64,000 bases of DNA from Pezizomycotina sp. ARF18 (Eukaryota > Ascomycota). Every line of letters starts with the position of its first letter. Position 1 is the stretch's first letter. Under the pieces are notes generated by a model. It was not told the DNA's origin, did not search any database, and saw only the letters and a program-made list of their open reading frames with translations. Positions 1 to 64,000 of this stretch are shown piece by piece. Location of the stretch: assembly GCA_002224055.1 (NCBI GenBank), contig AZLU01000058.1, positions 16,653 to 80,652 of the forward strand, written 5' to 3'. Both the position numbers and the translations under genes were made by a program.

Positions 1-673
1 TTAGGGTACATTTCGTCGACGGATTCATTCAGCTTCTTCTTGCCGGCGGTATCTGTGGAGACAAAGTCGGAAATCACCTCGGCAGCGTCGTCGAAAGCAA
101 CGATGGCGAGGCGGTCGTCTAGGAGAAAATAAAAAACAACCCTTGTTAAATGCGAGATTCATACCAACGGAGCATATTTGAACTTGAGATCTTCTTACCA
201 TCCTCCATCGTAGCGATGATAGTTTTCATAGCGTGTTTAACAACGTCAAGAACACTGAGACCGGTGTCTTCCTTTGGCTTTCCTTCCTCAGTGTAAGCTG
301 GTGCTGACGCTGCCATGGAGCCGGACACGTCGATGACGGTGACGAGGTCCAATGACGCTCGCTTATTAGAGCTCTTCTTGTCTGAGTCAGTCGATACATT
401 GCTCGGTGGGGTTACGGGTAACGAGCAACTGTCGCGGAGGCTTCCGCTGCGATACTGAGACTTAATTCTCTGTTGGGTTGAACAGTCGCCGAAGCAGCGC
501 CGTCTCTTGCAGCTTCGGTGTAGGACGGTGGAGGAATATCGTTGCGAGTCATCTTGTCTTTTCTTTGAATCGAGGACGGCTTCCCGTGGTGTCTTGCGAA
601 CTGCAGCAGGAACTGGTTTAGGCTTTCTTAGCTTTCGTAGTATTCTAGAAGGCAGGACGCACGGATTGATCAT
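1..673 (-). CDS. von Willebrand factor A (vWA) domain protein, 5' part (runs off the left edge)
   Basis: The minus-strand gene starts with ATG at 673 and is cut by the window edge, so only the N-terminal part is visible. A metal-ion-dependent adhesion site motif (VIDVSGSM, DxSxS type) is clear around 300-340 and is followed by a helix-rich stretch (SVLDVVKHAMKTII). A phase-1 intron is seen at 119-198 (GTAAGA donor, CTCCTAG acceptor); the downstream exon continues in frame as RLAIVAFDDAAEVISDF, the expected vWA core strand. vWA domains bind ligands or protein partners through a divalent cation; several fungal cytosolic vWA proteins carry further Hint or U-box domains, but none can be seen here. 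Upstream of the MIDAS, a second frame (DIPPPSYTEAARDGAAS) looks more protein-like than the ATG frame between about 430 and 540, so this exon probably holds a pair of frameshifts and the true N-terminus is uncertain. Confidence 0.75.
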
Positions 674-1611
674 TTGAAGTGCGGTGGGTGAGATTCATGA
701 GTTGGTTGGCCTGGCCGCTATTTATTATAATACTTTGGTGGTAGCGATCGGGCCGTATTATGAAGCTTAAAACAGAATGGTGAGATAAAGTTCATGCCCA
801 ATCCTTGAGTAAGACCTTTTCGCCCTAGACCCTGTCGCCTGAGTCCGCTGAAAGGATTAGGATTCAGCCCCTGTGTAGCGGTAATGTCATCAATGGCTCC
901 GAGCAGTTGGTTCTAGGGCCTGGGCGAATTGACATCCTGAAGATCGTGAGTCACTGCCCATCATGATCGTTCTGAGAGATTCGAACTCGATTAGGTACAG
1001 TGCCACGGACTTGCTCCTGACAAGGCGTCTGCAAAGGCATCAATTGAAGCCAGATCTGAAATTTATCTACATTAATACTTATTTCTTACGTGTCATTCCA
1101 TGATCCTCGCGGCAAAAAAGCTAAATGTCGAAATGGCACTCAGCCACACAAAACTACAGTCCCATTATCTCGATGAACTTCCACAACCGGCTCGATCCGA
1201 CTCAGCCCCCTCGACACGGCCTGTAAGCTAACCGTCAGCAGATCATAAGCAGAGAGATCTATAAAGGTTACTCGCGGTCTTTCAAAAATTGTCTCAAAAA
1301 CGTCTGATCTTAGCGTTACGCAGAGAGAAGAAATCATTTGCAGAGCCAGAGAAAAGCACCCGATAAACTCATCACAGATATTCGTTGCGCATAATACTCG
1401 ATAGTTAGGATGTTTCATCATCAACGAGTGGGCGAAGGCGGCTCAATATTACGAGACTCTCCCATTTTCGCAATTATATATCTGCCTTCTTAGGCGTCTC
1501 GTGAGTAGAACTGCAAAAATTGTATGAGGTATACAAAGGACTCGCAACGCACGAACTTCCAATATTCGGCGCATAGACTTATTTGAGCCGTTTAAGAATA
1601 ACTTCAGGTGT
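674..1611. other. Intergenic, nothing recognised
   Basis: Short open stretches (for example on the minus strand at 1140-1424) show no recognisable domain and no splice-linked continuation. I see no RNA gene or repeat here. Confidence 0.4.
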
Positions 1612-3153
1612 TCAGTAGAAATCCGAGCTAGCTACAAGCCGTCCGCGGCCAGCGAGTTGCAGCTTCGTTTGCCACAGGTTCATTAGGGAATCTGATACGT
1701 CAATTGCACTAGTATAACGCCGAACCAGCTCATCACTGCTGGGCCCAAGCTTGCCATAAACGATTTTGGAAGGCATATACTCGGGGAAGCTGTTGTGTGA
1801 GGCACCTATGGTTAGCTGAGGATGCTCAAGGGCGGTGATTTTGCGAGGAACGAGGAGCAATTCAACACTGACCACCACTGAGAGTCCACCGCTTGACTTT
1901 TGGCATGGCAAGAAGCGCCTTGGAAGCCGCCGTCAGTATCTCTTCCCAGCGATGCTGGTCAGGCGCCGTTCTTCTTGCTCTTTTTCTCCGCAATCTCCTG
2001 TCGTCTACTCCCTTGGGGTCGAAGCATTCCTCCTCTGGCACGACGATCTCGAGAGGCCGTCGTTGAGTTTGTTCCACCAGCGGCCGTTGGCGTTAATGGC
2101 TGAGTACCTCACCTCGAAATACTCCAACTTCGGCCACTCCCTCGTGATACCATCGTCATTCTGGAATAAGGCGGTACTGATGGCGGCCTGGACAAGTTCG
2201 AATGAGACTAAATGAGTTGAGAGAATACCGAGAGCTTTGCACAAACCCTCGCCGAGGGAGAAAAGCCGCGAATAGGTCTCCAGATCAATATTGGATACAT
2301 GGCTGTGTACTGAAGCTTAAAGCGGTGAGTGTGCCGGAAACGGCAGCGGGAAGGAGTCGGTCATTGATACTTGTGCATATACCTGTTTATTCTCAGCCAA
2401 TTTCAAGGTCAGAAATTTTGCTTCGTGAAATTACAAAATCTAGCCCTGACCTTCGAAAACCTCCATTCTAACCGATCGCTTCGTCCGTAGGTCAGTTGAC
2501 TGCATCATGAAGTGGTCCAACTCCATGCCGTGCAAAACCGCCCGAATGAACCTCTGCGATATCTCAAGTGCGTACGATACATTGCAGACGAAGTACAGCG
2601 ATCTGAGGCCCTTCACCTCCCCAATGCGAAGCTCTTCCAGGTGATCTTCGTCCTCCAACATAATCCGCTCGTCCTCTCCATGTATCAGCGGAGTTTGGCC
2701 ATCGATGTTCAGCGCGTCGAGCAGGCCATTCGACGTTGCTCCAATATATGGTTGGTAATAAACCGCTCTCCTTACTGTCGGATTTAATATCTTCAGTAGC
2801 CTTTTCAACTTGATCCACATGGCAAGCGTCGGCTGGTCGCCGTACGGTCCATCGATCGTGAGAAGTCGAATGTGTGAACGAGCGTTGAGTTCCGGTAGAC
2901 GTACTCCGCCAGCTCGTCGATATCCTCTTCGGCCGTCGTCAGCGCATGCGGAGGCGCAGATGCTCGTAAAGTTGAGCCTGAATGAGTTCGCGCCAGACCG
3001 GGTCAGAAGCGCAAGTTCCTGCTGAAATCCCCTGTCGCGACTGCCGAAGATGGCGACGGATTTGCGTGTGCTGGTCTGGCGGCTGTTCAGACGTAGGAGA
3101 AGATCTGACGGTGAATCTCAGAGGAGGAGGGAAAAGGAGGCAGCGCTAGCCAT
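1612..3153 (-). pseudogene. F-box-like fungal protein, multiply frameshifted
   Basis: A minus-strand gene that reads as one protein spread over several frames. Near the start (ATG 3153) there is an F-box-like opening (EIHRQIFSYV), then PVWRELIQAQLYEHLRLRMR, EEDIDELAEYVYRNSTLV, a long central segment (2440-2820; EDEDHLEELRIGEVKGLRSL), YFEVRYSAINANGRW near 2130 and a C-terminal part ending at 1612. F-box proteins recruit substrates to SCF ubiquitin ligases, and many ascomycete family members have this length and a leucine-rich C-terminus. At least four reading-frame changes are needed; two (GTC/CTG after FSYV, and CGC/CTG after LRMR) are repaired by one extra C beside an existing C. It may therefore be an intact gene with assembly errors. 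Family call is by sequence style, not by a search. Confidence 0.55.
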
Positions 3154-4434
3154 CGTCGCGCGTTATGGAATGTTCGCCACGGTGCCGGGTCGTTTCAGAT
3201 TCGTGAACGGGTAAAAAAAGCCTGCAACTCAAAGTCTGCGATGATTCATACTCTTTTTTTTTTCTGCGTACGCTGACGTAATCCACGCTAAACTCGGGCT
3301 ACCCGTCCCGGAGATCGAAATCACAAATTCACAATCCACACAATAGGAATTCTCGAGTCATACATGATTAGTCCTATAGATTATTGGCTGCTTTATAATT
3401 TCACATCCATCTCCAGGTAGCATTGATGTCCTCTTATCCATCAACTGCAGATGGGAGTGCTGAAGCTGATGTGATGCGAAACCGGTGCTTTGAAGAAGTC
3501 TGAATTGGCTAACAATGTGAACAAAAGGGCTTCCAGCCGGCCAGTGCTCCGTATATTTCTCCTTACTAGCATGAATGACAGAGAGTCGAGACTACTTTCG
3601 ACGATTATCAAGATTCAAGGCTATCTAGCAGCCTGACTTCAAGGGTAATGTCTCCTTATAGTATACAATTCAATCGCACCATCATCTAGGAAACATGTCT
3701 CTTATTACAGATACTTTGAGGGATCGCCCAGGCAGATACATTCTGGATTAGACAGGCTGGAATCCGTTAGCCGGGTTCTGGCTGAGTATACCAATCTCTG
3801 CACCCACACTCACAAATTCACAATCAATCAAATACCTGATTGAACTGCCATCAAAGCGCCTTCTTGATATTGCCTAGTGCCCACTCACCCACTCTCTGCC
3901 GAAAAAGACGGCTAAATGATGGCTCATCAATATTGTTGGTAACTTGTGCCGACCTCAACGCCTCTCCCAGCCAGCGGTCTTTCATTGACCCCAGATTTCT
4001 TAGTGGCGTGCGCCAACCTTTCCAGTTCGGACGCTCATAGGAGAAAATCATCATTGTTCATCCTCGTTCGTCGCTGACGTGCCAAACTAGTCCTCGCCTT
4101 GAGGCTAATTTTAATGGCTTGCAAAAACCCTGACGCCTCTGATATCTTTCTACATATCAAAAACCAACCTGATTTGGCACTAGCCTACTTCGGAGATGGC
4201 CTCTTCCTTTCTTTCAAGAGACTAAGAGTCCAAGACCCCCCAAGAGGCAGATCAGGCCCTAACTCTTTGACATTTAAAAGGCTATTTTCCCCTTAACTCA
4301 GTTGTCAAATATCCTGCCCAGGCTTAACTATGGACGGGGGGAATTCTGATCACAAAGTTTTCTTTCGAACCATTTCCAAGACATCATCCCGCGGGCGGCC
4401 TCCAACGACCGGGCTCGAGGACTAAGACGATGGT
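3154..4434. other. Intergenic, nothing recognised
   Basis: There is a T-run near 3255 and mixed-composition sequence. Overlapping short open frames on both strands near 3840-4054 have no identifiable domain. I see nothing I can name. Confidence 0.35.
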
Positions 4435-5855
4435 ATGGCGAACCCCTCTGATGCCGCAGTAACTTCACTGCTCAACTTCGGCATCTTAGCCATGGAACAT
4501 GGCCATCATAGGAGCCTACCTATGAACCAAGTTGTTTTGCTGCTCAGTTCCATGACGGAGGCCGCGAGATTAATACCAGCTTTCATCGGGACAACCGGGA
4601 AGATTGGACCATCAGCGGCGGGTGCATTGCACCAGAGGCTTCTCAGCCTGGAGGATTTTCTACGTACCGTTTCTCACGACAACTGCTTCCGGATAGCGAC
4701 CGTGCAGAGCGTTGTTCCGCCCTGTATAGCCGCCGCGTTTCTAGTAATGAGATTTTGCGTTCGACATTTCCTTGCCGGAGGGATACGAAGGGACGACTGG
4801 GCGATGTTTGGGACTTGGGTATGAGGCAATCCGGCATTTGAGCTAATTACTGGATGGTAGATGGGGGCTTTACAGCTAAGTCGTTTTCAAACGAACTCCT
4901 AGTTACTGGCACTGGCTATGATGATCGCTATGTACCTTAGTAAGTCCAGATAGTCTCTCCACTAATTCATGGTAGAATTTCACTAACATTCTTGACAGAC
5001 GCTACCATGAGTAAGCTCACCATCTGCATCCACTATAATACATACTCTAACAATCCACTTCCTCAGACCACGCAAACTACCATATTGGGATCTTTCCTTT
5101 GTTCAATACAGCGGGTTCCTCAAGGTAATTAATGCTTCATGATCCGAGCTTTTGCATGCTATGCTCTTCGTGACGTACTACTACAGGAACCAGCTAATTC
5201 ATGTAACTCTTTCATGATCTTTTACTGGGACCTTGCGCCAATAAGATCAATGCGGATGGCTCTGGTCATTGTTTTTGTAATTACGACAATGTCGATCACG
5301 GCAGGAGCTTTCTGTATAATCCTTCAGTGTAAACCCGTTGCATTCTGGAATGATCCTGTGGGCGCGAAATACTACCACTGGCGAAGATATGGCTTGCGAC
5401 AGGGGTGCTTACGATCGCCGGGGACATTGCGTTGTTTTTCATCCCTACTCCATATGTATGGAGGTTAAAGATCACGACACGTGAGAAAATCATCGTGATT
5501 GCAATGTTGGAATCGGAGCCTTGTAAGCCCAACCAATCTGCATTTTTCGCTATCGGCTGACTACATGATGTGAGAGGCGCTGACAATCTATTGTTTCTTT
5601 TCGCAGTGTATGCATTGCTTCAGCCTACCGCGTCGTCACCACGTGCACTTCGTAAATAATCCAGACATCACCTACAAAGTCGGCATCTCCCAAATGTGGG
5701 CAGTGCTCGAGATAAACCTGGGCATCATCGTTTCCTGCATCCCTGCCATGCGAGCCCTGGTCGTGCGTTTCACACCGAAGTTAATCGGATATAGCAACGG
5801 CAGCGGGCAGCGAAAATCGTCGCAGCCGGTAGTGCCGCCCTCAGTCCCGGAATAA
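4435..5855 (+). CDS. SAT4/rhodopsin-like seven-helix membrane protein A (frameshifted as assembled)
   Basis: Fungal rhodopsin-domain (SAT4-like) integral membrane protein; its relatives are orphan seven-helix proteins of unknown ligand. Exons can be followed: 4435-4818, 4903-4939, 4999-5010 and 5067 onward, with introns opening GTATGA, GTAAGT and GTAAGC; a late intron lies at 5522-5606 (GTAAGC to CGCAG). Family landmarks are present in order: SVVPPCIAAAFLVMRF, NYHIGIFPLFN, the pre-helix FYWDLAPIRSMRMAL, ITAGAFCIILQCKPVAFW (the conserved cysteine and FW), GVLTIAGDIALFFIPTPYVW, and the last helix AVLEINLGIIVSCIPAMRAL. Three one-base frameshifts occur near 5216, 5390 (TAT-TGG) and 5649 (ACT-TTC), the last two being homopolymer contractions. 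The tail after helix 7 is short and basic. The start codon at 4435 is the first plausible ATG; a later start is possible. Confidence 0.65.
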
Positions 5856-6117
5856 GGTTAGAAAATCTCGAGGGTGATAAGAAAGGGGAGGAAAGCGCCG
5901 ATCGGATACGGGAAGGGAGAAAGCGGGAGTGGATGCAACGGAGGGATCAGAGAGATAAGAAGTATCGGATAGGAGTAGGGCTGACGAGTGACGGTTCGAC
6001 GAAGGATGGGGAGTCATTCTGGAAGCTGTGAGGACTGTGATGGAGAGCAACGAGGAACTTCCAAACATAAGAACGGAGGCTTCGCCTTGATCCCGAGGAG
6101 CAAGTATTTTTTATTTT

Positions 6118-6207
<90 letters not shown>

Positions 6208-10900: not shown

Positions 10901-13696
10901 CGTCGTTTTCGAATTTCAAGTCGTTGCGTACGGAGGAGATATAAATAACAGCTAGACCAAAGGGAAGTTAAGATCGATTTTGCGACGTCGCCAGCGGCGG
11001 CTTGTCCAAAGGCATTTCGGATAATGCAGACTTGACGTGTGCTCAGGTTTCAGCTCCGTGATCTAATGATATAGCTGTTGAATGAGTTTGTTTGATGAAC
11101 TTTTAAAGAAATCTTACGGCCCTTGGAAGTTCAAAAGAAGGCTGTGAATTCTCAGCTCGTTTGCTGCACAACCAAGTCACCCGCTTTGCAAAAATTTTCA
11201 TTTTTGCGTTGCTATTGGCGCTTACATTTTGACGGAACCGTTGGAAGACAGGGTAACTCAAGTATCCTGATGAAGTTACCCAACAAATAATGTAGCCGAA
11301 CAACAAGATCTTAATGTTACTGGTAGAAGAGGATAGCGTTCAAGCCGTTCTTTTAATCATAATCAAAAGGTGCGCCACTTCTTTTGCAGTTTTAACGAAG
11401 GCTTTGTGAACAATATTAATGCCGCTCTGATTTATGATGTGAATAACATAACAATCAGGGTCGGGTCATGGAGAGCCTTTTGGGGATACTGGTCGAATTG
11501 CTAATGCAGGGATAACGGTCTGCACTTGGCTGCCGTGACCGAGTGCTTTCTGCATTTGATTGGCTGGAAATTTCAAAACCAAGATACACGCAAAGAAATT
11601 TCCCGAGTCGTTCAATGATGGTTAGTCCCTAGGGGCCCGTCTTTGAAATTTCTCAAAGAGGGATCTTTATAGGCAGTTACGCAATACAGTACATTATACC
11701 TCTTCTGCGCCTAAAGTGTCTAGTATTCCTGTGTGCGAAGTTCTAGCTCGTGATATATTATTGACATCGAAGGAGACTCCCAACAGCCCAAGCCTAAGTA
11801 AAGGATATCTACTGCAAGTCTAGATATATAGGTGCCCTACGCTACGAAGCGTCATGGCGTCTTTACAGCATTGTGCGGACATCTCCGCTGAACGGATCCT
11901 ACGTTCAAGAGCCGTCGCCTTCTGTTAGAGTCTGGTGAGGGACCAGGGCTCTTTCAAGTCGTTACCCTAACATTGTCTTAATATCCTCAGACGATACGGG
12001 TAATGTGATTTTACTGCAAGAATTGCTGACGAATGACTAACACACAGAAACATGGACTTGAGAAATATTTGGAGGGATCCGGACCAATGCACCTTCTTGG
12101 ATCGCGGTGCTCCTGTATCACGAGTCCCAGCTAAATTTCTTCTCTCTAGCTGGTGGCACGCTTATTTTAGTTGTAGTATCGCAGTAGTGACAATTTGAAG
12201 TATGTTTCACACTTTTTACGCTAAAATCACCCTGTCATCTCGCAACGGTCCGGTGCAAATGGTATAGTCCTCAAGGCTGGGAGACCCCCACCATCACCGA
12301 CGTTCAGTGCAAGAAAAAAAAAAAAAGGAAAGATCTTGAAAGGAAGAAAGAAAGGGAGGCTGGTGGTCCCAAGATCCAGACCCTTCAGCAAGGACCTGGT
12401 AAACCGTGGTTGTATGATTCGTGAAGAGTTCCTCCGAGGCCCGCTGCCTGCATATCCAACAACTCGGATACCGGATGATTATAGTCAGGGTATTTAGCGT
12501 GGTGGCTTTACCTTGGTACTTGCCGAGGTGAAAGGGCGCCCGACATCTCCAAAAATAGCAAATACAAACAAAAGAATAAAATTAAAATATTTTGTAAACC
12601 TAAAAAACCACGCTAAATACAATATTAATAATTAATTAGCAGGCGCGCCGCGCGCCCTACGCGATTCTTACTTGCATGTGAAAATATATAAAAGGAAAAC
12701 AAGGAAAATCTGGCCACTTCTTTACTGCCGCACGAAAGGTACGATCCGGAAACTTGAGTATTAATACTTCGAGTCTTATATCTGTGAGCTCCGCGCACAG
12801 CGTCAATAATATCTATATCTTTAATTCTCGAGGCTGGGAACCAGGAAACGAGCCGTGTCCCCAGTGTGCCCAATACATACTATGCCCTCTAATAAAAAGG
12901 ACTCGGTGCTCTTTCTGTCCGTCAGGTGGATTCCACCAAGTCTAAACTCTGCAAGGCCGGTGGCGCATGCAGACTCGGTTCTTCTGAGAGTTTCTGAAGA
13001 GTTTTTCGCGCTCTAACCCGAAGTGAAGAAAGAGATGTGGGGAAAGTGTGATATATCTCCACAGGCCGCATTGTAGCAGCTTTGCGGGACAACCCCCAGT
13101 GGCCCCCAAACAGCGGGTTTTCCTCTCACCAAATGTAGGTAATATCGCAAGCGTGATATCCCGTCTTAGTACGCCGTAGGTTTGGGAACTGGGTCTGGAA
13201 TAACAGAACGGAGTAAGAGCGCTGCTCAGAATTACGTATATGAAATGAACGTTTGAATCTTGGAGTCATATTCTATCGCCTTTACAGTTTAGCCCGTGCT
13301 TACAAGACGCTGGGCAGAGCAAAAATTATCTACTCAAAGCCTAGTGTTAATTTAATTGAACAATAATAGGGGCTTTTAGAATGCAGACGGATGCCGGTTC
13401 ACGGGATGTACGGCCTTCCCTGGAATTCCAATAGCCAATCCAACGGGTGCAGAAGAACAGACAAAAGCCATGAAAGGTCGCAGAGAGAGACTGAGGAGAG
13501 AGAATGCCCAGTAGCACGCTTTTTATTAAAACGTGGAAATTCCCTCTCACTGTCACGCCCACCCAGAACCACGTTTTTCATTCTCACATCTTCCCAGTCC
13601 GCCGGTGCTCGTTACCACTCTCATTTTTGATCTTTCTGTTTCGTTCGCCTTATTTCAATTTTCTGATAACGATTCGTGGTTCGCGCTCTTTCAAAG
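10901..13696. other. Long intergenic stretch, no gene recognised
   Basis: About 2.8 kb with only short unrelated open frames. It holds an A-run at 12305-12319 and a stretch at 12540-12700 with AT-rich sequence interrupted by GGCGCGCCGCGCGCCC. The C/T-rich 13500-13670 stretch just before the acetylhydrolase ATG probably contains that gene's promoter and 5' leader. Confidence 0.4.
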
Positions 13697-14976
13697 ATGC
13701 TACCTCTCCTCGCGACCGCGGCGACGCTCGTTGTCCATGCGCTGGCGGCCCCAACCACGGCGGACCCGACGGCGGATTCAACCGCCAGCCATGGTCATGG
13801 TAGTAGTTTCAAGTACTCACTCCCGCCGCTCTCCGGGCAGTACTGCGTCGGCAAAACACCCACGGTGGTCCTGACCGACCCTGTCAACAAGGACATATTC
13901 GCCGATAACAACACATCCGCTCCAAGGGAGATCCTGGTTACGATGTATTACCCTACAGACCGCGCCTCCTCAGAGGAGCAGTGCCTCGGAGGTGCCTACG
14001 CCGACGCCGGATTTGCCGGCTGGATCTCCACCTACCTCAATGGCAACGTGTCCGTCGACTACTTCCAGCAGTTTCAGACCCACAGCGTGAGCGGCGCGAA
14101 GTTCTACAAGGATGGCTCGAAGAAGAAGACGCCACTTCTGCTCTACAGTCACGGTTTCGGCGTACCCCTGAAGCTGAACCAGGCTATCATCGAGGACGTG
14201 ACCAGCCACGGATACATCATCGCCGCGATGGAGCATCCGTGGGACTCCGACTACGCGGAATTTCCCGATGGCCATGTCGTCCGCACCGGTCAGATCTTCT
14301 TTACGGACCCGGACTACATCACTGAGAGCATCAAAGAGGTGAAACAGCGCGTCAATGACACCTTCCTCACCATGAACTCCATTAAGAACAAGAAGGTTAC
14401 TGTCCCAGGATGCGACATATCCCAGCTAACGAAGGGCTGCGGAATGTTCGGCCACTCCGTCGGCGGCCAACTCTCCCTCGTCGCGATGTTGCAAACCCCC
14501 GACATCGCAGCCGGTGTTAACATGGACGGCTGGTTCTGGAACGGCGCTAACGCCACCAACCTGACGAACCCGCACGATGCCAATTGCCACCGTCCTTACA
14601 TGACACTGCGCTCCGACCCGGACCTCCTCACCGACTTCTACCTCACAAATGGCGGCGGTCAGCAGAACTACGTCGACGCCATGAAGGTCCAATCTGGACC
14701 TAAGGTCATGCCGTTCGTCAAAAATTACCTCCACTGGGGCTGGACTGATCTTACCGTCCTCAGCATCCCGCTTGGGATAATCATGCTACGATGGCGAAGG
14801 AGCTCAGCTCGTTCCAGACCTGGACCGGCCCCGGAGATCCCAGAGTCAAGTTCAACGCTTCTCAGGCTTACAATAGCTGGTTCTTTGATAATACCATTAA
14901 CGGCGGAAACGCAAATATCGCAAAGGGCATCCCGGGAATCCCGGGTGTTACTCTCGCCACTGATATCGGTAATTAA
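13697..14976 (+). CDS. Secreted PAF-acetylhydrolase-like lipase/esterase (one frameshift as assembled)
   Basis: Alpha/beta-hydrolase of the platelet-activating-factor acetylhydrolase isoform II family, which cleaves short or oxidised sn-2 acyl groups from phospholipids. ATG at 13697 gives a typical signal peptide (MLPLLATAATLVVHALA, then AP), so I prefer it to the upstream GTG at 13676. Landmarks in order: a strand before the oxyanion region (TPLLLYSHGFG), the nucleophile elbow GMFGHSVGGQLS at about 14441-14475, the acid in VNMDGWFWNG at about 14516-14545, and the histidine in LHWGWTDL at about 14731. All three catalytic positions lie before the only frameshift, at 14761-14765, where one extra C gives LSHPAWDNHATMAKEL and joins to a C-terminal frame ending at TAA 14976. 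Corrected length is about 426 residues, normal for the family. No intron is seen. Several N-x-S/T sites fit a secreted glycoprotein. Confidence 0.85.
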
Positions 14977-15647
14977 GCGTAGGGAGAGCAATCAAAAATG
15001 TCTCTCTAAGAGTTTTCATGTATCCTGATATGTTGTATAAGTAGCGCTCGTGAAATATTTTAAGTTATCAGATAGCCGATGTTTAAAGATCTGTGAATAG
15101 TATCGTCTTTATAATATATAATAAACAACTTATTGAAACCAATATTTGATATAAGAGCGAAAACATAGTTAAGAGAATGATTATATCCCTATTCATATCG
15201 TGGTTCGGAGTCCATGGATATAGATCTTGAAGTATGTTCCAGGAAACTTCATGATCCAAGTGAATTTTTGAATGATTCTGTTTTGGTTGATTTGTCTTTA
15301 TTACACAAGATAGTATTCATAATCTATACATACACTTAACATAGTGAATTATGCATAACTTCATGAGAATGGTATAAAACATCAAGGAAAGCAGTCAAGA
15401 AAATGGTAAGAATGCCATCATATCTGCCGTTAGAGAAAAACTCGTAGCAGATATCCCTCCTCATGCAGAAAACCAAGAATTTATATACATGTCCGCGTAC
15501 AGGCGTACCCAAAGGAATGAAAATAACGACTTTTCCATCGCTAGAGATGAACAAAAAAAAAAAAAAAAAAAAAAAACCCGTATTGCCCAATGAATAGACC
15601 CAAAAAATATCAAAGAAAAATAGATTTGCTCAACATCACCCAGTTTC
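14977..15647. other. Intergenic with poly(A) run
   Basis: Convergent 3' ends. AT-rich sequence downstream of the acetylhydrolase (AATATATAATAAAC at about 15113) may serve polyadenylation. An A-run of about 22 bases lies at 15553-15576. No gene seen. Confidence 0.4.
15553..15576. repeat. Poly(A) tract
   Basis: Uninterrupted run of about 22 A on the plus strand with no retroelement coding sequence nearby. Confidence 0.85.
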
Positions 15648-16911
15648 TCACCGCGCATTCCACTCCGTGGTTCCCTCCTCTCCTACTACAGTTTGGGTCT
15701 TGACGGTAGCCTGACTGCTCTTCTGGCTACTGTCAACCTGCTTGCTGGACTGCGAGTTTTGGGGTCGTAGTCCCTGACGCGCCATCTCGATCAGGTCGTA
15801 TGGGGTTCTGTCGAGCTCCGCGACGCCGGTCTGCGTTCTGTTCTCTCGGCTCCTCGACCGCATCCACCTCCGCCAGGGGCTCTCAGCCGACCCGCCGCTG
15901 TTGTTTATATTGCTGCTGGTGCGCCTTGCGACGAATGTTCGGACGGCTGGCGCGCAAGCGACGCAGATCGACGTAGACATCTCGATACCACTCCAGACGA
16001 GCGAGGAAGGGTTGTTATTCGGATCTTGAGGGCCGTAGACGAGGATGAGGCGCATCATTGTCGAGAAGACGCAGAATATTCCGAGGCAGAAGAGGGAGCC
16101 CAGCCCAACTTTCTGCCTGACAGAGATGCGTAGGCCACGGAGGAGAGGCATCGGGAGAGCGATTACTAGAGAAACAGGAGTTCTGTTAGACGTCATTTTC
16201 GACGGAAGGGATATTACCCAAGGCATACAAGGGGATACGTACGGATAAGATCAGTAATAATGATCAGCGCGGAGCAAGATATAATAATATAAGGTATTCG
16301 GTAGGAGTAACAGTTTTCGGTTGTCAACGCCCAGTTATTCTTCAGAGGCCAGCAGCCGAACAAGTTCGTCCCCATCGTCCAGAGGCCGGATACAACAATA
16401 AAGCATGTCGCGACAAATAGGAACCTGCGGTGGACGAGTCGCGTTGGCGGGATAATGCTGTAAGGAGTGAGATCACGGCGCCTTTGGCCGCGTACAAGCC
16501 CAGGTAGTAAAAAACTCCCGTGAAGTAACCAATCTCGAGCGCCTTCCCCGTCGTCCCGTTATCTATGGGTACTGCGTTCGGGTCGCGACCGCCGCCGGTC
16601 TGTATCAGGCCGTACAATATGAGGAGCGACATGCCGGTGCAGTATTCGATATTGCATACGAAGCTTAGCCGATCAGCACGTCCGCCGCGATAATGAACGG
16701 TTTCTTTCGTCTGTCATAGCAGATCCGCACTAAAGCTCGAGTCATGACCGCTAGCACTGCGGGGAACGCAGTGGTCATCCACAGCTGTTCAACAAGAAAA
16801 CGAAAACGTTAGTAAAGAAGATCAACATACAAAGTAAACTCCCCTCGTCCCCTTTGTGGTTTACGCACTGCTACTAGCATACCAACATCGCTGCCGGATA
16901 ACATCGTTCAT
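15648..16911 (-). CDS. SAT4/rhodopsin-like seven-helix membrane protein B (frameshifted as assembled)
   Basis: Minus-strand member of the same family as gene A. From the 5' side: LWMTTAFPAVLAVMTRALVR from an acceptor at 16785, FVCNIEYCTGMSLLILYG, TGVFYYLGLYAAKGAVISLL, RFLFVATCFIVVSGLW, FGCWPLKNNW (the loop cysteine) and YIIISCSALIIITDLI. A clean intron at 16166-16242 (GTACGT to TCTAG) splices DLI to LIALPMPLLRGLRI, the conserved DxxILxLPxPxL block, followed by IEMSTSICVACAPAVR and a polar, Ser/Gln-rich tail to 15648. Two frameshifts, near 16463 (CTT-TAC) and 16669 (GGG-CTA), are single-base homopolymer contractions. The first exon (possibly ATG at 16911) is uncertain. The family has no firmly established ligand. 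Confidence 0.68.
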
Positions 16912-19940: not shown

Positions 19941-20449
19941 GCTATTATTATCGATGAGGATTCTTATTATCGATGAGGATTCGTCGTCACTGCGACCTTC
20001 AGACAAACCCCCCCTTTTACCCCTTTGAGGATTCAAAGGATTTATATATCGCTTATTTATCTTGTTCTCTAGGGTTTAGGTTCGCTTGCGTGCTTCTTGG
20101 CAAATAACAAAACGATAGTGTGTGGGTAAACTGTTCACAAACTGTTCTGCAATACAGCATGCATCACACTTGTTCACATCAGAAATTGGGGGTCACCGAT
20201 ATCAGGAGGGGAAAGCTCGTTTTACCCCATGTGCCCCATCCTGGCCATCCTGTGCCCTCTCGCGCCGTGCTATACCTCAAAATAAGCAAAACTTCTTTAA
20301 AATTAAAAACTAGGCTTATCCTGTCCGAAACCCTAACCATAATTAAAATAATATAAAAACGCGTTAAAAAATTAAAAACAAAGCTCGCTTACAACTCCAC
20401 AAGCCCCATCTCTCTTTTTTTTTTTTTTTTGTAAAGCAAAGGGCTCAAT
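19941..20449. other. Non-coding stretch with a short tandem duplication
   Basis: No gene seen. Besides the 19-base duplication at 19945-19982, a run of T (about 20410-20430) marks the edge of the AT-rich block to the right. Confidence 0.4.
19945..19982. repeat. Perfect 19-bp tandem duplication
   Basis: The unit TTATTATCGATGAGGATTC occurs twice head to tail (19945-19963 and 19964-19982) without mismatch. Confidence 0.95.
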
Positions 20450-20960
20450 GTTATAGAAATCTGCCTCAGTAATATACTAGTACGAACTAATATATATTGA
20501 AAAATTAATATACACTAGGGAATACTATAATATTATATTTTATAATATAGTAACTTATACCTTATAATATAGTGGCTTATACCTTTATAATGTTATACCT
20601 TTATAATATAGTGGCTTATACCTTATAATGTTATACCTTTATAATATAGATTAATTTTTATAAAAAATTAATATATATTTAAGACCTAAATTTTTTTTTA
20701 ATTAATAAAAAATTTATAATTAATAAATATATTATTATATAATATATATTTTATATAAAGATAACCGCGATAATGATATAAATAATAGTTTATTTTAAAT
20801 GTTATTATATTTAAAGATTTTATATTAAAATATATTTTTAAGAAAAACCTATATAATATATTAGAAATTTTTCTTATTTTTTAAAAAATTATAAATAAGA
20901 TATTATTTTATATTTTATAGGTACTAATAAAATTAAATCTATAATTATAGCAAGTCCGAT
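20450..20960. repeat. AT-rich block, likely RIP-degraded repeat remnant
   Basis: Very AT-rich sequence, dominated by TA and TT/AA dinucleotides, between moderately GC-rich flanks. No open frame survives. Extreme TpA enrichment is the known end result of repeat-induced point mutation in ascomycetes, so an old transposon copy is the most likely source, but no terminal repeats or coding trace identify it. Confidence 0.6.
20541..20650. repeat. Imperfect tandem repeat of about 39 bp inside the AT-rich block
   Basis: The motif TATAATATAGTGGCTTATAC recurs at about 20563 and 20602 and in diverged form at 20541, separated by TTATAATGTTATACC-type spacers, giving a period of about 39-40 bases. Confidence 0.75.
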
Positions 20961-22812
20961 GTTTGACCTGACTATAATATAAGAAATATGATGGGGTTCG
21001 AACTTTTTGGTATTGAAAACCCTGTAGGCTTTCTTTCCCCACGGGTATACACCAGGTAAGGATTACACTCGTTTCTATCCCTTGTCACCGCCATCTGCCT
21101 ATGCATTTGTAGTATATGAAAGCTGTCACTGCATTTTCAATATCCATACGGATACTTCCAAGTTTAATTGAAGGCCTGAAGGACATTTCGTATCATCCTG
21201 AGAGTCGGAACTTAGTGCAGATTATCGTGATATATATTTTGCTTTCCTCCGATGTTGTTGTTAGCATGTTCGCCAATACGGGATCGGCAGTGCACAGTGC
21301 AGGTGCAGGGCACACGAGGGTGGTACATTGCTGAGCGCCCCCACTTTGATGAACCATCCACAGAAAATTATGACACAAGCGTACGCTATCCCGCAGAAGA
21401 AAGAGGCAAAAACCGGTCGTGGAACCTAGAACCTGTCCACTCTGGCGTGTTGTCTGGAGACATTCATGCCTGAAGAAAATGGAGAATCCATTTGCTATAT
21501 CGAAATGTTACAGAATCTGCTCTGGATATCCTCCGAGAACTTTCTATTGGGGGTTGAGGAAGACCATTTACATCACTTCTCCTTGGAGCTGACGCTCATA
21601 ATTCTGCCTGAAACCTGAAAAATTGCCTAGAGGTTTTCTGACGATGTTGGATTAAGGGACTCCGCGGCTCAAAAAGAACGGATCGTGAAGGGTTGCAGTC
21701 ATTGCCTCACTCGTGTGTGAGAGAAAGTAACATCTCCAGCTCGTTATCCCCGGCCTGTCCTGTTGCCTCATATTTGCCAATCATTCTTATCTCACGCATA
21801 TCGATATACTTATATTTCTCTCTTCCCATCGGAAGAATTCTGTGGATCATTATAACGCCGAATAGCTAGCGTGAATAGCTTCGGAAGAAAATACCCTGTG
21901 GTCCGTGAACCGTTGAATCGGGTGCTATCATGCAAACCCTTCTCAACGACCAGATTAGGGTACCTGCTTGCGAATCCCAGCCTAGCCAGTCAGGTTTTAA
22001 TACTAATTTTTCCTCTGCTTTGTTTCCTTTAAATTCCTAGCTAATCGTATCGATCCCTACTTTGAAGGCATCCAGATTCTCCTATTCCTATCACCTATTT
22101 ATCTGATTACTCTTCACCCTTTTCCACACACTCCTTTTTTGGTGTCATAAAAGGACGTAAAACAAGCAGAAGTAATGAAATTCTTTGCTGATCGGTAGAA
22201 AGGTATTAGGATCTCTCCTTTCAAAGAATGTATATAGTGGGTCACTTAGTTATAGCTGATGACGTCTTGGCTCGCCTGTCTTCTCCCTATAAATCAGTTC
22301 GGGAAATAGGCGAGTTCTAGCTCCCCCAAACTCGTTCGTTAATAGCATAAGGTAGTAAGGATTAGTGCCAAATAGGCTGAGCCAAGGGCCAAGCGCAGGA
22401 AGTAGAGGCTATGAAGCCAAAAGACCAACCTGTGATCAGGACTTTGTATCCGGTGAGTGTTCTTGCTTTATAGGATCGGCCAAGCTGCAGCAAACATTGC
22501 TGTTATTTCCTTTATCATTATTATTGTCTTTTCATTAATTTCGATTCGATGGGAATTGGTATCAGAATTACTCTTAGAATCCGAAAAAAAAAACAAAAAA
22601 TAAAATTAAAAAAATAAAAATAAAAATAAACAATTCTATTAATGAATTGATTTAGAAAAAGAAAAAGGTTGAGGTTGAGTGGGCGAGGCATTCTTCAATT
22701 TATAAAAAGGCTTCACCAGCTTTTTTCCTACCTCTTACCAAATACATTCAACCTCACAGGTATCAACATTCACATCATCATTATTATTTACGAACGACAA
22801 CAATCTCTCGAC
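20961..22812. other. Gene-free stretch upstream of the aquaporin
   Basis: No coding region recognised. An A-rich low-complexity segment lies at 22583-22640. The CT-rich sequence at 22700-22800 directly before the aquaporin ATG may be its promoter and leader. Confidence 0.4.
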
Positions 22813-44985: not shown

Positions 44986-46358
44986 TCAGTACCTCGATAC
45001 GGCATGTATTTCCGTACTTGTACTAACATCCTCCTGCGACTCCCCTTTCAGAACAGCCTCTATCTCCGGCCTAATCGGTTTCTGCGACGAGCTCCCACGT
45101 AATCTCGCCTTCATTACATACCTCCTCATCTGCTCGCTCTCTATCCAATCGTCGTCCAATGTACGCCTCCCTGTCCCCATCCTTTCAAGATCCCCTTCAG
45201 CCTAGAATCCGTCCCTCGTCCGAGCATCTCCACATCACCGATCCGAGTTGTTTGATGCCCCGGTGTCTTAAAATCATTGCTCATGTAACCGTCATCGGGA
45301 TCCATAGTACCAAAGGTAACCGTCGTCTTGACTTTTCCAGCAATAGCCGTGTTGCTCCTGCTCCTTGCGCTGCCAGTGCCATATCCCTTACGGGAGTGCC
45401 AGAGCCACTTCAGGGGCGGACAGCATGCCACAACGATGCAGCTCGTCTGTTCCGCCGTGCCCATATCGAGATGTTTGTAAGTCGCGTGCTGGCACCGATA
45501 CTAACAGTGCGCCCTATCGTGCAGGCGATGCAAACCCCGCCTAGACTGAATACGAACACCAGGCTGATGATCTTTCGCCGGGAAAGAACGAGATGCGGGA
45601 GTAAGAAGAAAGGGAGGGCGTATATCATAACATCAGAGAAGAAGTGAAAGGCGAGCGTGATGAAATAGACTGGAGGGAAGAGACGGCCAGACAGATGTTT
45701 TTCGGATCGGTAGACCAGTTGCGATTAACTGGGAGGCACCAGAAGATGTTCAAGCCCAGCGTAACGATCAGGCCGAGGCCTACAAAACCAACGACATACC
45801 AGAGGGCTTTTCGAAGGCGAGGTAACGTGTTTGGAAAAGTTGCATGTAGAAGAGAAGGAAGGAGCCTTTGATACAGTAAAGGCTAATGTAATAAGGAATG
45901 GTAGAAATGAACAGAGCCTATTGAAAAGAATTAATACCATGATTGGCTCATAAAGGTCAACCGATATCACCTCGATCTTGAATCGCTGCACTAACCTTAA
46001 GGACTCTTCTTAGTTTGTCCTCATCGTTCTTGTAAAACTTCTGAAAGTCCGGCGCATCTGCGCCTCCGAAATTCAAGTCTGGATTCCACAGTCCCCACTG
46101 CCACATCATAAGGTCGCACGCGCTGGAGCTAGCCATCATGAACCATGCAGTAACTATGAGAGCGTCCGACAGCGCAATCCGACTTTGAACCCAACATCGT
46201 ACCCATAGTCGTAAGAATACAAAGGGGAGAGCGAATCCTACGATCGTCCACTCGACGATCTGTATAAAGTATGAAGTTAGTATACATAAAAGGAGTAAGG
46301 AAACATGTTGGAGAAGACGCTTTTCTCATACCGTTGTTTGCAATTCTGTTAAGGGCAT
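44986..46358 (-). CDS. SAT4/rhodopsin-like seven-helix membrane protein D (frameshifted as assembled)
   Basis: Minus strand. A nine-codon first exon (MPLTELQTT, 46332-46358) is followed by an intron at 46260-46331 (GTATGA to ATACAG), then IVEWTIVGFALPFVFLRLWV, IALSDALIVTAWFMMASSSA, ALFISTIPYYISLYCIKGSF, LFYMQLFPNTLPRLRKALWY, GLNIFWCLPVNRNW (conserved cysteine before the fifth helix), SLQSI-FITLAFHFFSDVMIY and LPFFLLPHLVLSRRKIISLV, and the last helix with EQTSCIVVACCPPLKWLW. The tail is polar and acidic with SRY at its end (44986). Frameshifts at 45663 (ATT-TTC) and about 45181 (GGG-ATG) are homopolymer contractions, and a further one lies near 45455. The conserved motif SLxSIxIT is restored by the first repair, which supports the correction. 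Confidence 0.7.
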
Positions 46359-48008
46359 CTCCTTGTAACGGAGTAAGATGATCTCCAAATTGAGAGAGAC
46401 TGTCTTTCGCTACAGTCCTTCCCCTTTCTATACTTTCGTTCGATTCGTGATCAAGGACGGAAAGGAATCGTTATTACGTGATTTTCCAAGCGAGATCTCC
46501 AGATCTCATCTAATAGCCACGCGAGAATAAAGATGAACGAGAATATTATACAACATGTGAATTTCCATCCAAAAGAAAAGAGGATTTTTAAGGTTATAAG
46601 AGAAACCCTCCTATAGCCTACCACTCCCGACAGGGATCAGGCTAACGGGGAGTATACCAGGGTATTTGCACTTCATTACCTTCGTTCTGTTTCTCTTGCC
46701 TTTTTTTCTTTCTTTTTTTCTCTAATTCGGTTGCAGAGATCGGCCTGCCCCGTTCTGGCTAACCCGCCGTCTAGTTTAGGAACAGAAAATCTCCACTAAA
46801 AAAATCATTCTCCACTTCGTCTACCAATCCTTTCAGATAAAACTCTCTCAATATGACAAACTAGTGCCTTAACCGTATTGGACAGTTCATGAGGAAACTC
46901 TTTTTCATTTCCCTAAGTATTTCTCTTGGAGGGTTGAAACTTGGAGCGCCGCCGTTATGATGACGCACTCCCAGCGCCGGTATATCTTTGCGTCTATCTC
47001 TATAGTCCTGGTGGCGTTCGGTTCACGGTTAAATCTAGCCAGTAGGGAACCGACTTCGAAGCAGGTCCTTCAGGATGTTCAGGTCGACCGTCAGATTATT
47101 CGAATAGCGCAGTCGTGCCATTCTGACGGTACTTGAGAATACTGCGTCCTAACCTTCTACCGACATGTTCCTGCACCAGCGCCACCGAAAACGCCGCGCA
47201 GAGAATAAAAAGGATAATTCTGCGTCTCATCGGTAGTAATTGATACCTTGTCGGCAGTCAACGCCCGAGAGTAAGCCTAGGTATTGAAACACTCGGCAGT
47301 ACGCTCACTAGTAAGTAGTGACCCTTTCTCGACTCTCCGGTGGACTATACTAATAACGCTAGGGAATGTGACCTGTTATCGCCCTCAAACTCTCGAATAA
47401 ACTCCCAAACCTGGATTGTTTGTATTAGGCTATCTCAACTTCTCAAGAAACCTCCACATTCGGCTGCCTCCCTAAACAACAAGCTACGTAAAGATCTTTT
47501 TAAAATCCGCAACATTGAGACCAGCAATAAATGTGGAGAAAGCGATCGGGAATGCTCGAAATCCGGCTTCATATAAAAAGTCGTGACCACGAGTTCCTGA
47601 CCAGTGATTACCGAGAGGAGTCAACCAATAGCCCGTGTCCGGGAAGTGGGGAAAGGGTCGTGATAGAGTTTAAGGGAGGTGGGGGAGGTTTTAGATACAG
47701 TAGCGTAGGGATTTCCTTCAATAAAACCGAGTAGAACCAAGTAGGAAATTGTGACGAGAACTTTACGCGCTGCAGGTGTATAAGAGAGGGATCGGTAAGC
47801 AAATAACCTGCCCTGCAAAGTGTATCATCCTCCAAGGGTGAATGTCATCTACGGAGAATTATCAATGGAGCCCTCTTGTAGGGTTATATATATATTGACA
47901 AGGAATGCCGTCCATGACTCCCCGGATCTAAATGGAGACTGTGAAGCCAAATAATTGACTTTGTGATTGAGTATTTAAGTATCTAATGGCTACTTTGTGA
48001 TAGACATA
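46359..48008. other. Intergenic, nothing recognised
   Basis: About 1.6 kb with isolated short open frames. The first part likely holds the promoter of rhodopsin-like gene D. No RNA gene or clear repeat until the inverted-repeat element. Confidence 0.4.
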
Positions 48009-48043
48009 ATTGTTAGGACACCTTCCTAAAACGGCAATTTCTT
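48009..48043. repeat. Left terminal inverted repeat
   Basis: Pairs with 48615-48649. The outer core TTAGGA and TTCCTAAAA is conserved in both ends. Confidence 0.75.
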
Positions 48044-48614
48044 TAAGTTCTGTAATATTTTTAAATTCTCGTAACTCACTTAATTTTAGCGGATTTTCGT
48101 AAAATTAAAAATCTAAGTATATTATATAAATAATATTAATATATTAAAATTTTATAAAATTTTATAAAATATTAAATTTATATTATTATTTTAAACCTTT
48201 TTATATATAAATAGTATATCTTATCTTTAAACTTATATTATAACATCAATATTTTATAAATTTTATAAATTAAATACATTATAAATAATCTATTAATCTA
48301 ATACATATTCTAATTTTATAAAATTTTATTAAAAATTTATAACGTAATAATCTTTTAAATTTTATATTACTTAAAATAACACGAATTTCGTGCAATTTCG
48401 CGTATTTTATATATAAAAAGTACGTAAGTACGTGTTTTTAAAAATACGTAAAGTATTAAGAATTATCACATTATAAGATTTCGATAAATTTTTATAAAAT
48501 TCGAATATATATTAGATTAATATATTTATAACATATTTTAATTTCAGTTAATTCTAGCAGTTCGTTATTATTTTATAATTAATTAAAAAAGTATAAAAAT
48601 CGTACTTTTATATA

Positions 48615-48649
48615 GGAAAACTGCCATTTTAGGAAAGTATCCTAATAAT
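48615..48649. repeat. Right terminal inverted repeat
   Basis: Reverse complement of the left end with transitions only. It is followed directly by TA. Confidence 0.75.
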
Positions 48650-48651
48650 TA

Positions 48652-49450
48652 TATCAAGCGACTGTAGTGTTATTTACTAGCAGGCTGCAGCGGAAATTCC
48701 TCATCGAAGTAACCACCATCAACAGTCGAGTTATTTGCGAAATCAGAGAGGTGTTCAATGTCCAATATAAGAAATGTAAATTCGTGGATTGGTCCTCACG
48801 AGTAGATACTAGCCGCTTTGTTGATATTTCTAACCAAATCGCAATTCTTTCCTTGAAGGAGATGAGGATGTACGTTGCGACCGTTGATAGCTTTTCGCGG
48901 TCACGGCGAACGGTACTCCGTATAAAGGAATTTCCGCTAGTATTCCCAATTCGGGAATGTAAATTTGCAAAACAAGTTCCCTTTTCCCAATATGGGTGAT
49001 TTAGGGGGAACCCCGTGAGGTCGTCCAGCCTTGTATTGAGACCCTGGGGATAAAAGATCCAGGTTTGCGCTTCGAGCACCTGTGATGCTATAGTTGAACT
49101 GTTACGAGGTTAAGCCGATTATCTAGGCCTAAACTACACTCGATTTCGTTCTTCGTCGCGCGCACCCTCTTCATGAGTCGATAAGGTATCTGCTGCTGGT
49201 GCTCAACTGCAGGCCTTGACCCTGGATCCAAATTTCGTCCAGGGCCAAGGCAGCTTTCACCGGGTTTCGACGCTATATCTCTTGCCAGAATTCTTCGACG
49301 GCACGAAAGATTATATGTTTCAATCATGACCAAGTCTTCTGTCAGAAAGTGGGTAGCAAGTTACACGGCAACCCATCCTCCGCCGGCAACGTCCAAGACA
49401 CCGTGCTGGTCGCGACACTCGCGTGAATAATAGGGTAACCGCAGAGCGCG
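48652..49450. other. Intergenic, open frames of unclear status
   Basis: Overlapping open frames on both strands (48654-49079 minus, 48667-48999 plus) have no recognisable domain. They may be chance or a decayed sequence next to the element. Confidence 0.35.
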
Positions 49451-50693
49451 TATCGTCGCTCTATAGGAACAGGACAATGCGATAACGGAGATCAAGCGTA
49501 TCATGGAAACTGAGGGGTTTGAGGCAACGTTAGTAATTTACCATTTTACATACGGCTGCCTTTGTCGATATATTTACGCCCGATGCTAACATCAGATATT
49601 AATACTTAGTCCAAAGCAATTCAGGGACCACCTCGATGAGTGGGGCGTGAATCCCAGATACCTGACTCGAAAACGGCAAATTTATATCGCTAAGAGGGTA
49701 GTAGAATGCAGTCGACAAGAAAAACTCACTTCGATTAGATATAAGAAATGCAAGCGGAGAATATCGTCATCAAATGTCAAACGTGTGGTACAAAAATACA
49801 TGGGTGATATGAGTGCGTTCAATCTTTACTTGGAGGGCATAGAAGCCAAACTTCTCGACAATGCTAACGTGAAGAGACATTCATTATAGTACGTTCTAGT
49901 GCCGTTGAAACCGTTCCAAGTTCTCATAACATATCGGCCTATACTTCGTCCTCGAGTATCTGCCTTTCCTCATTCTACAAGCGATACTCCACACCGAAGC
50001 GCCGTCGAGGTCGAGGTAGAGCGATCACAATATAGGTACGATGGAAAGTCCTATTTCGAAGGAGAATCCCGAGAAGGTACTTATAATCTGCAAGCTGATA
50101 ACAAGTTAGAATGTTTTCCAGCTCCTGATCTCAGTGTCTTTAATCGAACTAGGCCATATGTCACTGGCAGCGATGCTCTACCGGCTGAGCGGGCTACCCT
50201 CGGCTTCGAAGCTCAAGACATCCAGCGGGCAGGAGATCAAGACAGGGCCTTTGATCTCGGAAATGATCTCGAGCTTGTAGCAGCTGATGGTACAATTCTT
50301 CTCCCCCAGCAGGCAATCGCCATCATAACGCGGTATTAAAGCTTGCCTTAGAGACTGAAGCCTTCGAGTTGAACGAGCTCTTATCCCAAAAGGGAATAAA
50401 CGAACTGCCAATTCATGTCAGAAAATCCGATACTTCCTCTTTCAAAGTCGCAGAGAAGGTAAAGTAGTGGCTTCATTCTAGAGTTCAAAATCCAACCGAT
50501 ATAATCGAGGAACCCACGTTTTATTATCCCCGGATGCCGACTTTGAGGACTGGGATACATTTTTTAATCGTCTGCGCAGGTCGCAGCCGGAGTCTCGGTC
50601 AGCGGTTAATGATAACGATATTAATGATTTAACGATTAACAACATCATCAATCAGGAGTTCTTGGATACACCGGAATTCAGTCTGATGTAACC
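49451..50693 (+). pseudogene. Clr5-domain fungal protein (frameshifted, 5' end unresolved)
   Basis: The N-terminal Clr5 domain is recognisable: ITEIKRIMETEGFEAT (about 49482-49528), a clean intron at 49529-49609 (GTTAGT, GCTAAC, CTTAG), then PKQFRDHLDEWGVNPRYLTR and KRQIYIAKRVVECSRQEKLT, ending with a stop at 49889. Clr5 is a short fungal N-terminal domain named from the fission yeast silencing factor; its members are often putative nuclear regulators. Downstream, other frames remain protein-like: RSQYRYDGKSYFEGESREGT with a polar region to 50339, and FEDWDTFFNRLRRSQPESRS plus an Asn/Asp-rich tail ending at a TAA at about 50690. I take these as the C-terminal, disordered part of the same gene. 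No ATG was fixed, and the first helix before ITEIKR is disturbed. Confidence 0.58.
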
Positions 50694-51805: not shown

Positions 51806-53094
51806 ATGGAGCAAATCACAGTAGAACGAGCGGCGTCCTGGATGCGGCAACTGATGACCTCTCGCTTTCCACTCGAGCTATACACGCGGACGATGGCTTC
51901 TCGGATATCAGGACATAGCACCCGCGCTGCACGTTAGCACGACCTACAAGTATCCCGGAACCCCGACGAGCTGATCCCCAGCAGGAAATCCGGTACGAAC
52001 CTGTAAGCAATCATCCAAAAACTCCTTATAACATCGCAGAGCAGTGTCTAATCATGATATCAAGGGTACATACATCTACTCCCGCGAATCAGCGCCAAAT
52101 TACACTCGTCTCGAATCCATCCTCACCTCGCTCATCGGAGGTCCGACGCTAACCTACGCCTCCGGCCTCGCCGCCGTCAACGCCTTCTACGTCCTCACAA
52201 ACCCAAAACGCGCCTTCATAACCGGCGGATACCACGGCTGCCATGAGATCCTCAAGATCTTCAAGCGCCTCACAAGCTCGAACAATTCAACCTCTCCGAA
52301 GTAGACAAAGCCGGTCCCGGGGATATAATCCACGTCGAGACGCCGCTAAACCCGACCGGCGAAGCGCTGAACCTAAAGTACTACGCCGACAAAGCGCACG
52401 AGCGCGGCGCGTACTTATTCGTCGACGCGACGTTCGGACCTCCGGGGTTGCAGGATCCGTTTGAGTGGGAGCCGACGCGATCATGCACAGCGGGACAAAG
52501 TACTTCGGCGGTCACAGCGACATGCTCTGCGGTACTCTGAGCGTGCATCCCGACAAGAAGGATACGTGGTTCAAGCAGTTATTCTTCGAGAGGATGATAC
52601 TGGGCAACGTGCTCGGAAGCCTCGAGGGTTGGCTCGGCGTGAGGAGCTTGCGAACGCTGCAGATCCGCGTGCAGAAGCAGAGCCAGAGCGCTACGAAACT
52701 CGTAGAGTGGTTGCACGAATCTCTGCAGGCTGGCGGAGATAACCCTGTTGCGAAAACGGTAGCTAAGATAACGCACGCGAGTTTGCAGAAGGATGACATG
52801 GAATGGCTGTCGAGGCAGATGCCCAATGGGTTCGGACCTGTGTTCTCATTGGAGATGAAGGATGGTAGGTACGGGAAGACGCTACCATCGAAGTTGGACC
52901 TCTTCCAGCACGCGACCAGCTTGGGTGGAGTAGAGAGTCTCGTAGAATGGAGGACGATGAGCGATCACATGGTATCGCAGGCGGTGCTGAGGTTTAGCAT
53001 TGGCATTGAGGACTTCCGGGATCTCAAGAATGATCTCGAGGGAGGTTTCAAACGGCTGCTCGAAGATGATTCTCAGAAAAAAGAAGAACCGTAA
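51806..53094 (+). CDS. Cys/Met-metabolism PLP enzyme (cystathionine gamma-synthase/beta-lyase type), frameshifted as assembled
   Basis: Trans-sulfuration family enzyme, fold type I PLP-dependent. In order: LSLSTRAIHADDGFSDIR (about 51860-51912), IAPALHVSTTYKYPG, an intron near 51990-52035, YIYSRESAPNYTRLESI, GGPTLTYASGLAAVNAF, FITGGYHGCHEILKIF, GDIIHVETPLNPTGEALNL (substrate Asn/Thr), YLFVDATFGPPGLQDPF (the PLP N1 Asp in VDATF), and MHSGTKYFGGHSDMLCG with the Schiff-base lysine in SGTKY at about 52492-52506. The C-terminal domain to TAA 53094 is continuous, including FQHATSLGGVESLVEWRTM. Frameshifts at 51911 (GG), 51961 (C-run), 52274 (AA) and 52467 (GGG) are each fixed by one added base of the same kind. 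Fungal relatives act in methionine/homocysteine metabolism in the cytosol or peroxisome; the exact reaction is not settled by sequence alone. Confidence 0.85.
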
Positions 53095-61432: not shown

Positions 61433-61859
61433 TGTTTCCTTCTTTTTTTCCACTTCCTCTTGTTAGACAGAGACGATGTAGAGATTTTCCAGCGGCGGTC
61501 GCGGTCTGTAAAAGCGAATATTGGAAGACCGGGAGACCGGAAGACGGTCCAGGGGGGGGAATCTTTGTTATAGATGAGAGTCTTTCCGTGGGTTGAAAAG
61601 TGTGAAATATGATTCAGAAAAAATTTGTGAAGATTTCTAGCCGAGGAGAGAGCCTCGCGTCCGTTTTTAATTGGACGTGACATGGCAATTCGTGTTATGA
61701 CTTCACGAAAGTCACGGTATCACGGGACGCAAGGGTATCGGGACAGCCGCAATCGCATAGACTGGCTGGCTTTTCGTCTACGACTTCACGGCCGCAACGT
61801 CGAGTTTTAGGAGCAAGATTAGGACAGGGCTACCTATATTGCTTGGGAGCTGATTAGGG
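61433..61859. other. Spacer in the F-box array
   Basis: Probable promoter of copy 2. No feature recognised. Confidence 0.3.
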
Positions 61860-63182: not shown

Positions 63183-63412
63183 GTGAGGACAGAAGCGAGG
63201 TGAAACTTGAAGATCAATGCGTACGATGGAAAGAGGAGGCGCAACGAAGATAGATGAGTAGTCGACTTCGGTGGATAGAATAGGGTGAAATGATTCCTTC
63301 GTACGGCAGTGTTTAAGGTTGAAGGGTTGCTGGAGGTATCGTAGATGTTGATCGAAGGAGGTACAAGTTGTAGTGAGAATTTTGTTGGGTGACAACTCGA
63401 CCAGTAGCTCGG

Positions 63413-63512
63413 ATAAATAAAATAAATAAAATAAAATAAAATAAAATAAATATAAAATATAAATAAAATAAATAAAATAAAATAAAATAAAATAATAAAT
63501 AAATAAATAATA
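63413..63512. repeat. (AAATA)n/(AAAT)n microsatellite
   Basis: About 100 bases of mixed AAATA and AAAT repeats on the plus strand. Confidence 0.93.
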
Positions 63513-63815
63513 ACATAAATCGCCACAGCTAAAGACCTGAAAAAGGTCCTAGTCTATACTACATCTAACAATTTCTTTTACTTTTACTTCTACGACGTAT
63601 TTGTAATATCATTGGACAAGTTCGATCTCCAGGAGATGATTTTTTACAATGCACTTTATTCTGAGCTCGTTTGCCTAGTCATAACACTGGCTCTTGGCTA
63701 ATAGTGCTTGCCCAGAGCATGTTATTAGTATCCTGAGCCTTTCAACGATATGGATTTGATATTCGTATTATCTATAGAAAGAATACCTCATGGGAATTGC
63801 TAGGAATTGAGAAAT

Positions 63816-63838
63816 AAAAAAAAAAAAAAAAAAAAAAG
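63816..63838. repeat. Poly(A) tract followed by G-run
   Basis: About 22 A followed by GGGGGG. Confidence 0.85.
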
Positions 63839-64000
63839 GGGGGAATTGGGGAAAGAAAAATGATGATATACTAAAGAAAAGACAATAGAGCTAATAAATA
63901 TAACAACCCTCACTAAATAAATCACTTACCGTCAAACAAATTCAGTCACCATCACCAAACAAACCGGCGAGAAACATAGCATACCACGAAACGCGGCGGA

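Follow-up and report, generated by a model that had tools for sequence, protein, structure and literature searches.

The broken reading frames found in the window are almost certainly errors in the consensus of a long-read assembly, one that went without correction or was poorly corrected. The window is the whole stretch of DNA analysed here, 64,000 nucleotides long (positions 16653-80652 of contig C58), and belongs to an assembly of 46,361,250 bases (46.36 Mb) in 408 contigs, whose fungal origin is marked by fungal rhodopsin-domain genes, eukaryotic rRNA and short spliced introns. The attribution is based on base losses in essential genes across contigs, a large excess of losses over gains, the lack of in-frame stops, the enrichment of losses in runs of identical bases, and two copies of one mitochondrial stretch that differ by indels only. 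Short runs of identical bases would be under-counted in the consensus, producing frame switches, and roughly one base in 190 would thus be missing from the nuclear coding sequence tested. An earlier sequence-only reading had recognized here the error profile of unpolished long reads; our evidence from essential genes, 5S rRNA genes and mitochondrial DNA copies supports its substance, namely a known artefact and no biological feature or new biology, whereas both the use of long reads and the missing short-read polishing are what we infer from this profile.

Within the window, the following genes and frame breaks were delineated by Pfam matches and by frameshift-aware alignment:

52047..53052, plus strand: gene of a PLP-dependent enzyme (Cys_Met_Meta_PP, PF01053), with Pfam pieces in three frames
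52047-52256, 52322-52468 and 52459-53052, plus strand: domain pieces of the PLP enzyme (Pfam), one frame each
52269..52270, plus strand: single-base loss shifting the frame of the PLP enzyme gene (frameshift-aware alignment)
52466..52467, plus strand: single-base loss shifting the frame of the PLP enzyme gene (frameshift-aware alignment), where Pfam pieces overlap in two frames
45467..46214, minus strand: fungal rhodopsin-domain gene (PF20684) in three frames (Pfam pieces), with breaks near 45822 and at 45658-45664
5378..5765, plus strand: fungal rhodopsin-domain gene in two frames (Pfam pieces), an intron between the pieces being possible
15927..16444, minus strand: fungal rhodopsin-domain gene in two frames (Pfam pieces), an intron between the pieces being possible
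13670..15028, plus strand: open frame with a PAF-AH_p_II match (PF03403) at 13799-14536 that ends at profile position 255 of 372

The closest solved relative of the PLP enzyme is 9uuw (E 9.8e-79). The rhodopsin-domain gene at 45467..46214 leaves no space for an intron at its breaks, and the one near 45822, revealed by the Pfam pieces, is absent from the 17 sites at which one-base run contractions had previously been listed as gene-breaking. The general pattern behind that list holds, but its individual sites are only partly confirmed. Homology (Pfam pieces and frameshift-aware alignment) backs three of the 17: the sites given as 52274 (A) and 52467 (G) correspond to the two losses aligned in the PLP enzyme gene, and 45663 falls at the frame switch between Pfam pieces at 45658-45664. 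Seven further sites (5390, 5649, 14763, 16463, 16669, 51911 and 51961) lie in genes whose matches leave the break unplaced, and the strands that were scanned gave no Pfam match at E 0.01 around 23054, 23285, 31607, 32015, 55228, 57426 and 57466. The base printed at 14763 is G rather than the listed C, and at 5390 the supposed run consists of a single T. Printed runs at the 17 listed bases are just 1-4 long, reaching two or more at 15 sites, three or more at nine and four or more at one, compared with window background shares of 0.46, 0.177 and 0.065. This enrichment is no independent evidence, since the bases had been picked as runs, nor can the listed sites by themselves demonstrate a run bias, given that some adjacent run nearly always allows a lost base to be patched.

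The frame-break pattern is real and genome-wide, not confined to the window. Five essential gene families searched across the genome yielded 113 pieces, all included in the tally, with genes split over frames as in the window; some pieces in the family tables span stops, running over introns or frame breaks, and the actin, synthetase and RPB2 loci entered the piece tally only. We further applied a frameshift- and intron-aware alignment to 11 stretches of ten genes, including five of the seven HSP70 loci found, four of the eight CCT loci found (one gene taken in two parts) and the PLP enzyme of the window. Clear of introns, and excluding from the totals the stretch on C208 (39% identity), which was also left out of the placement described below, there are 54 one-base losses, five two-base losses and four gains in 11,949 coding bases, amounting to 64 lost bases or one per 187. 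Rates vary between genes: one-base losses clear of introns number 14 over 1,492 bases of the HSP70 gene on C3, two over 1,433 of the CCT gene on C139 and two over 892 of the PLP enzyme of the window. In-frame stops number zero in the 4,369 aligned codons of all 11 stretches, C208 included, a count obtained with an aligner that penalises stops; this agrees with the earlier statement that such stops are rare compared with frameshifts.

These observations bear on the possibility of true gene decay, in which the window would be degenerating and its broken genes would be real pseudogenes, perhaps with a contribution of repeat-induced point mutation (RIP). The composition of the window offers some grounds for it: the 2 kb bins starting at 20001 and 48001 have a GC content of 0.36, RIP-like dinucleotide ratios are seen in the bins at 48001 (1.0 and 0.89) and 24001 (1.04 and 0.82), and the repeat at 20001-22500 has copies elsewhere in the genome that are merely 67-84% identical. 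However, decay predicts that essential genes elsewhere should be intact, while many other contigs carry essential genes, HSP70 and CCT among them, with breaks of this kind, and point mutation would bring the in-frame stops that are lacking. Decay is therefore very unlikely. The AT-rich blocks at 20001-22000 and 48001-50000 are probably old, mutated repeats, given the divergent copies of the first and the RIP-like ratios of the second. The repeat at 20001-22500 was also considered as a possible supply of near-identical copies, and was rejected since copies of this low identity are too old to reveal sequencing error.

Ordinary introns or alignment effects are a highly improbable source of the frame changes as well. 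Among the 83 pairs of neighbouring pieces in the essential families, 38 have space for an intron and are spread over the three classes as 16, 12 and 10, and seven one-base losses, two two-base losses and eight gains are found three steps or fewer from an intron in the alignments, where intron-phase effects are possible; the latter events were not counted above. The remaining 45 pairs, by contrast, are separated by fewer than 40 bases and are skewed one way, with 36 in the one-base-loss class and nine in the other class, of which six show an excess of exactly -2 and therefore represent two losses. Moreover, two copies of a single mitochondrial molecule also disagree with each other (see below).

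The losses are concentrated in runs of identical bases, although the interval on this estimate is wide. For 50 placed events, every position and base was scored against reference residues and codon usage; the placement left out 11 of the 61 one-base losses, which lie near introns, gains or other events. The uncalibrated estimator is biased, assigning 17% of simulated uniform deletions to singletons as against a true 54%, and it was therefore calibrated on simulated deletions of known class. By the calibrated moment estimate, the share of losses from runs that originally had two or more bases is 1.0 (0.82-1.0) against a background of 44%, and in runs of at least three 51% (0.28-0.72) against 11%; a mixture estimate gives 95% (0.71-1.0) and 51% (0.29-0.71), respectively. 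The likelihood gain over background is 9.9, compared with a maximum of 5.3 among 300 null simulations. Uncalibrated means over 43 events are weak (0.53 vs 0.48 for runs of at least two and 0.22 vs 0.13 for runs of at least three), and in the uncalibrated placement 50 of 500 null samples reached the observed share for runs of three or more, and none of the 500 reached the overall likelihood gain. The label "homopolymer" used earlier for these lesions survives only in a weak sense, as the original runs are short, of about 2-4 bases; the run bias itself is shown by the calibrated test.

The lesions extend beyond protein genes, as judged from the dispersed 5S rRNA genes. All 15 listed 5S matches, from 47 of 1,990 candidates scored, cover the full 120-position model, with lengths of 120 (five), 119 (four), 118 (one), 117 (three), 116 (one) and 123 (one), so that nine of the 15 matches listed are shorter than the model; some of them could be pseudogenes. 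The 5.8S rRNA covers all 154 model positions ungapped. A group I intron was observed in the rDNA locus L080 at 825-1104, adjoining the 3' end of the small-subunit rRNA gene.

The most direct proof comes from DNA that was assembled twice and can be checked against itself. Contig C50 (231,088 bases; L084-L087) is mitochondrial by its COX1 matches, and the tRNA series on it is found again at a distance of about 215.4 kb, indicating that the ends of a circular molecule overlap. The terminal overlap is about 15.7 kb long, of which 2.2 kb was compared as two pairs of stretches. Over 2,196 columns the two copies are free of substitutions and differ by 21 indels. Of these, 16 involve one base and are without exception differences in run length (the longer copy having runs of 3-11), and five comprise 2-4 bases; either copy can be the shorter one. 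The absence of substitutions is a stronger point than the placement in runs, because at the 20-23% GC of these stretches random indels would often hit runs. The contig is probably a circular mitochondrial genome of about 215 kb. Pieces of the COX1 model (1-52, 111-159, 183-229 and 340-436) are arranged in order on its plus strand from 136069 to 206518 and, if they form one gene, would make a cox1 of about 70 kb; a further piece (1-50) is found at 91811.

Two other repeated sequences are much cleaner. On contig C257 the copies show no differences over 1,000 columns, and the rDNA copies L080 and L082, which contain stretches of N and were compared over their readable columns, have a single difference in 2,431 such columns, a run of four C versus one of five. 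High copy number may account for this in both cases, an extra assumption that counts somewhat against the artefact. Contig C257 itself (56,537 bases; L088, L089) is AT-rich and has a repeat period of about 37.3 kb, so that this replicon is probably a circle assembled over more than one turn; matches resembling RNA polymerase beta (E 7.1e-10 and 7.4e-4) occur on it, as does a tRNA whose anticodon is TCA.

It is vanishingly improbable that the bases are truly absent from the nuclear genome and that the frames are restored at short runs by pervasive insertion editing of RNA or by slippage of ribosomes, as the continuation of domain order beyond each break, the absence of stops and the ungapped 5.8S rRNA might suggest, given that the 5S genes vary in length and that editing cannot make the C50 copies within one contig differ by indels in both directions. 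Taken together, the base losses seen in essential and non-coding RNA genes and in the comparison of the C50 copies exclude a general origin in decay, introns or repair at the RNA level.

Consensus error is thus the reading we retain, and a further point against it comes from the homopolymer spectrum. In the window, as in three 10 kb stretches taken at random, long A/T runs exceed simple expectation, those of 10-18 bases surviving and being commoner than expected, and C/G runs of 5-6 fall slightly under it. In the older picture of nanopore sequencing, long homopolymers are truncated. Surviving long A/T runs together with affected short runs fit that picture poorly, which bears on the platform and not on the artefact; for the same reason, a PacBio CLR consensus is a live alternative to nanopore.

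With about one base missing per 190 bases of the nuclear coding sequence tested, almost no gene above some hundreds of bases keeps an uninterrupted frame. Any tally of genes or pseudogenes, or claim of gene loss, based on this assembly would be unreliable, as had been anticipated for gene models and pseudogene counts. It should be noted that, where a circular contig overlaps itself, aligning one end to the other offers a simple, reference-free measure of assembly error.

Similar damage is described for other long-read drafts. In nanopore-only assemblies of the fungus Drechmeria coniospora (PMC7500977), indels located mainly in homopolymers disrupt conserved genes, with few of 305 conserved genes at full length before short-read polishing. 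The conserved genes analysed here are likewise broken by run indels, whereas long-read polishing in D. coniospora left insertions in excess of deletions, and losses here far outnumber gains. For long-read drafts of small genomes, the Kastor study (PMC12007338) places deletions at runs of two to eight, with few at non-repeated bases, and notes that run deletions in bacterial MinION drafts lead to false frameshifted pseudogenes. Losses in the present assembly are also tied to short runs, but about half of them lie in runs of two, unlike the Kastor drafts, for which deletions are given there as commonest after runs of 4-5. Finally, unpolished PacBio CLR assemblies are characterized in the polishCLR paper (PMC9985148) by low consensus accuracy, chiefly due to indels, which damages gene annotation; the error found here is similarly dominated by indels, a comparison that does not include a run-length profile and so does not separate the platforms.
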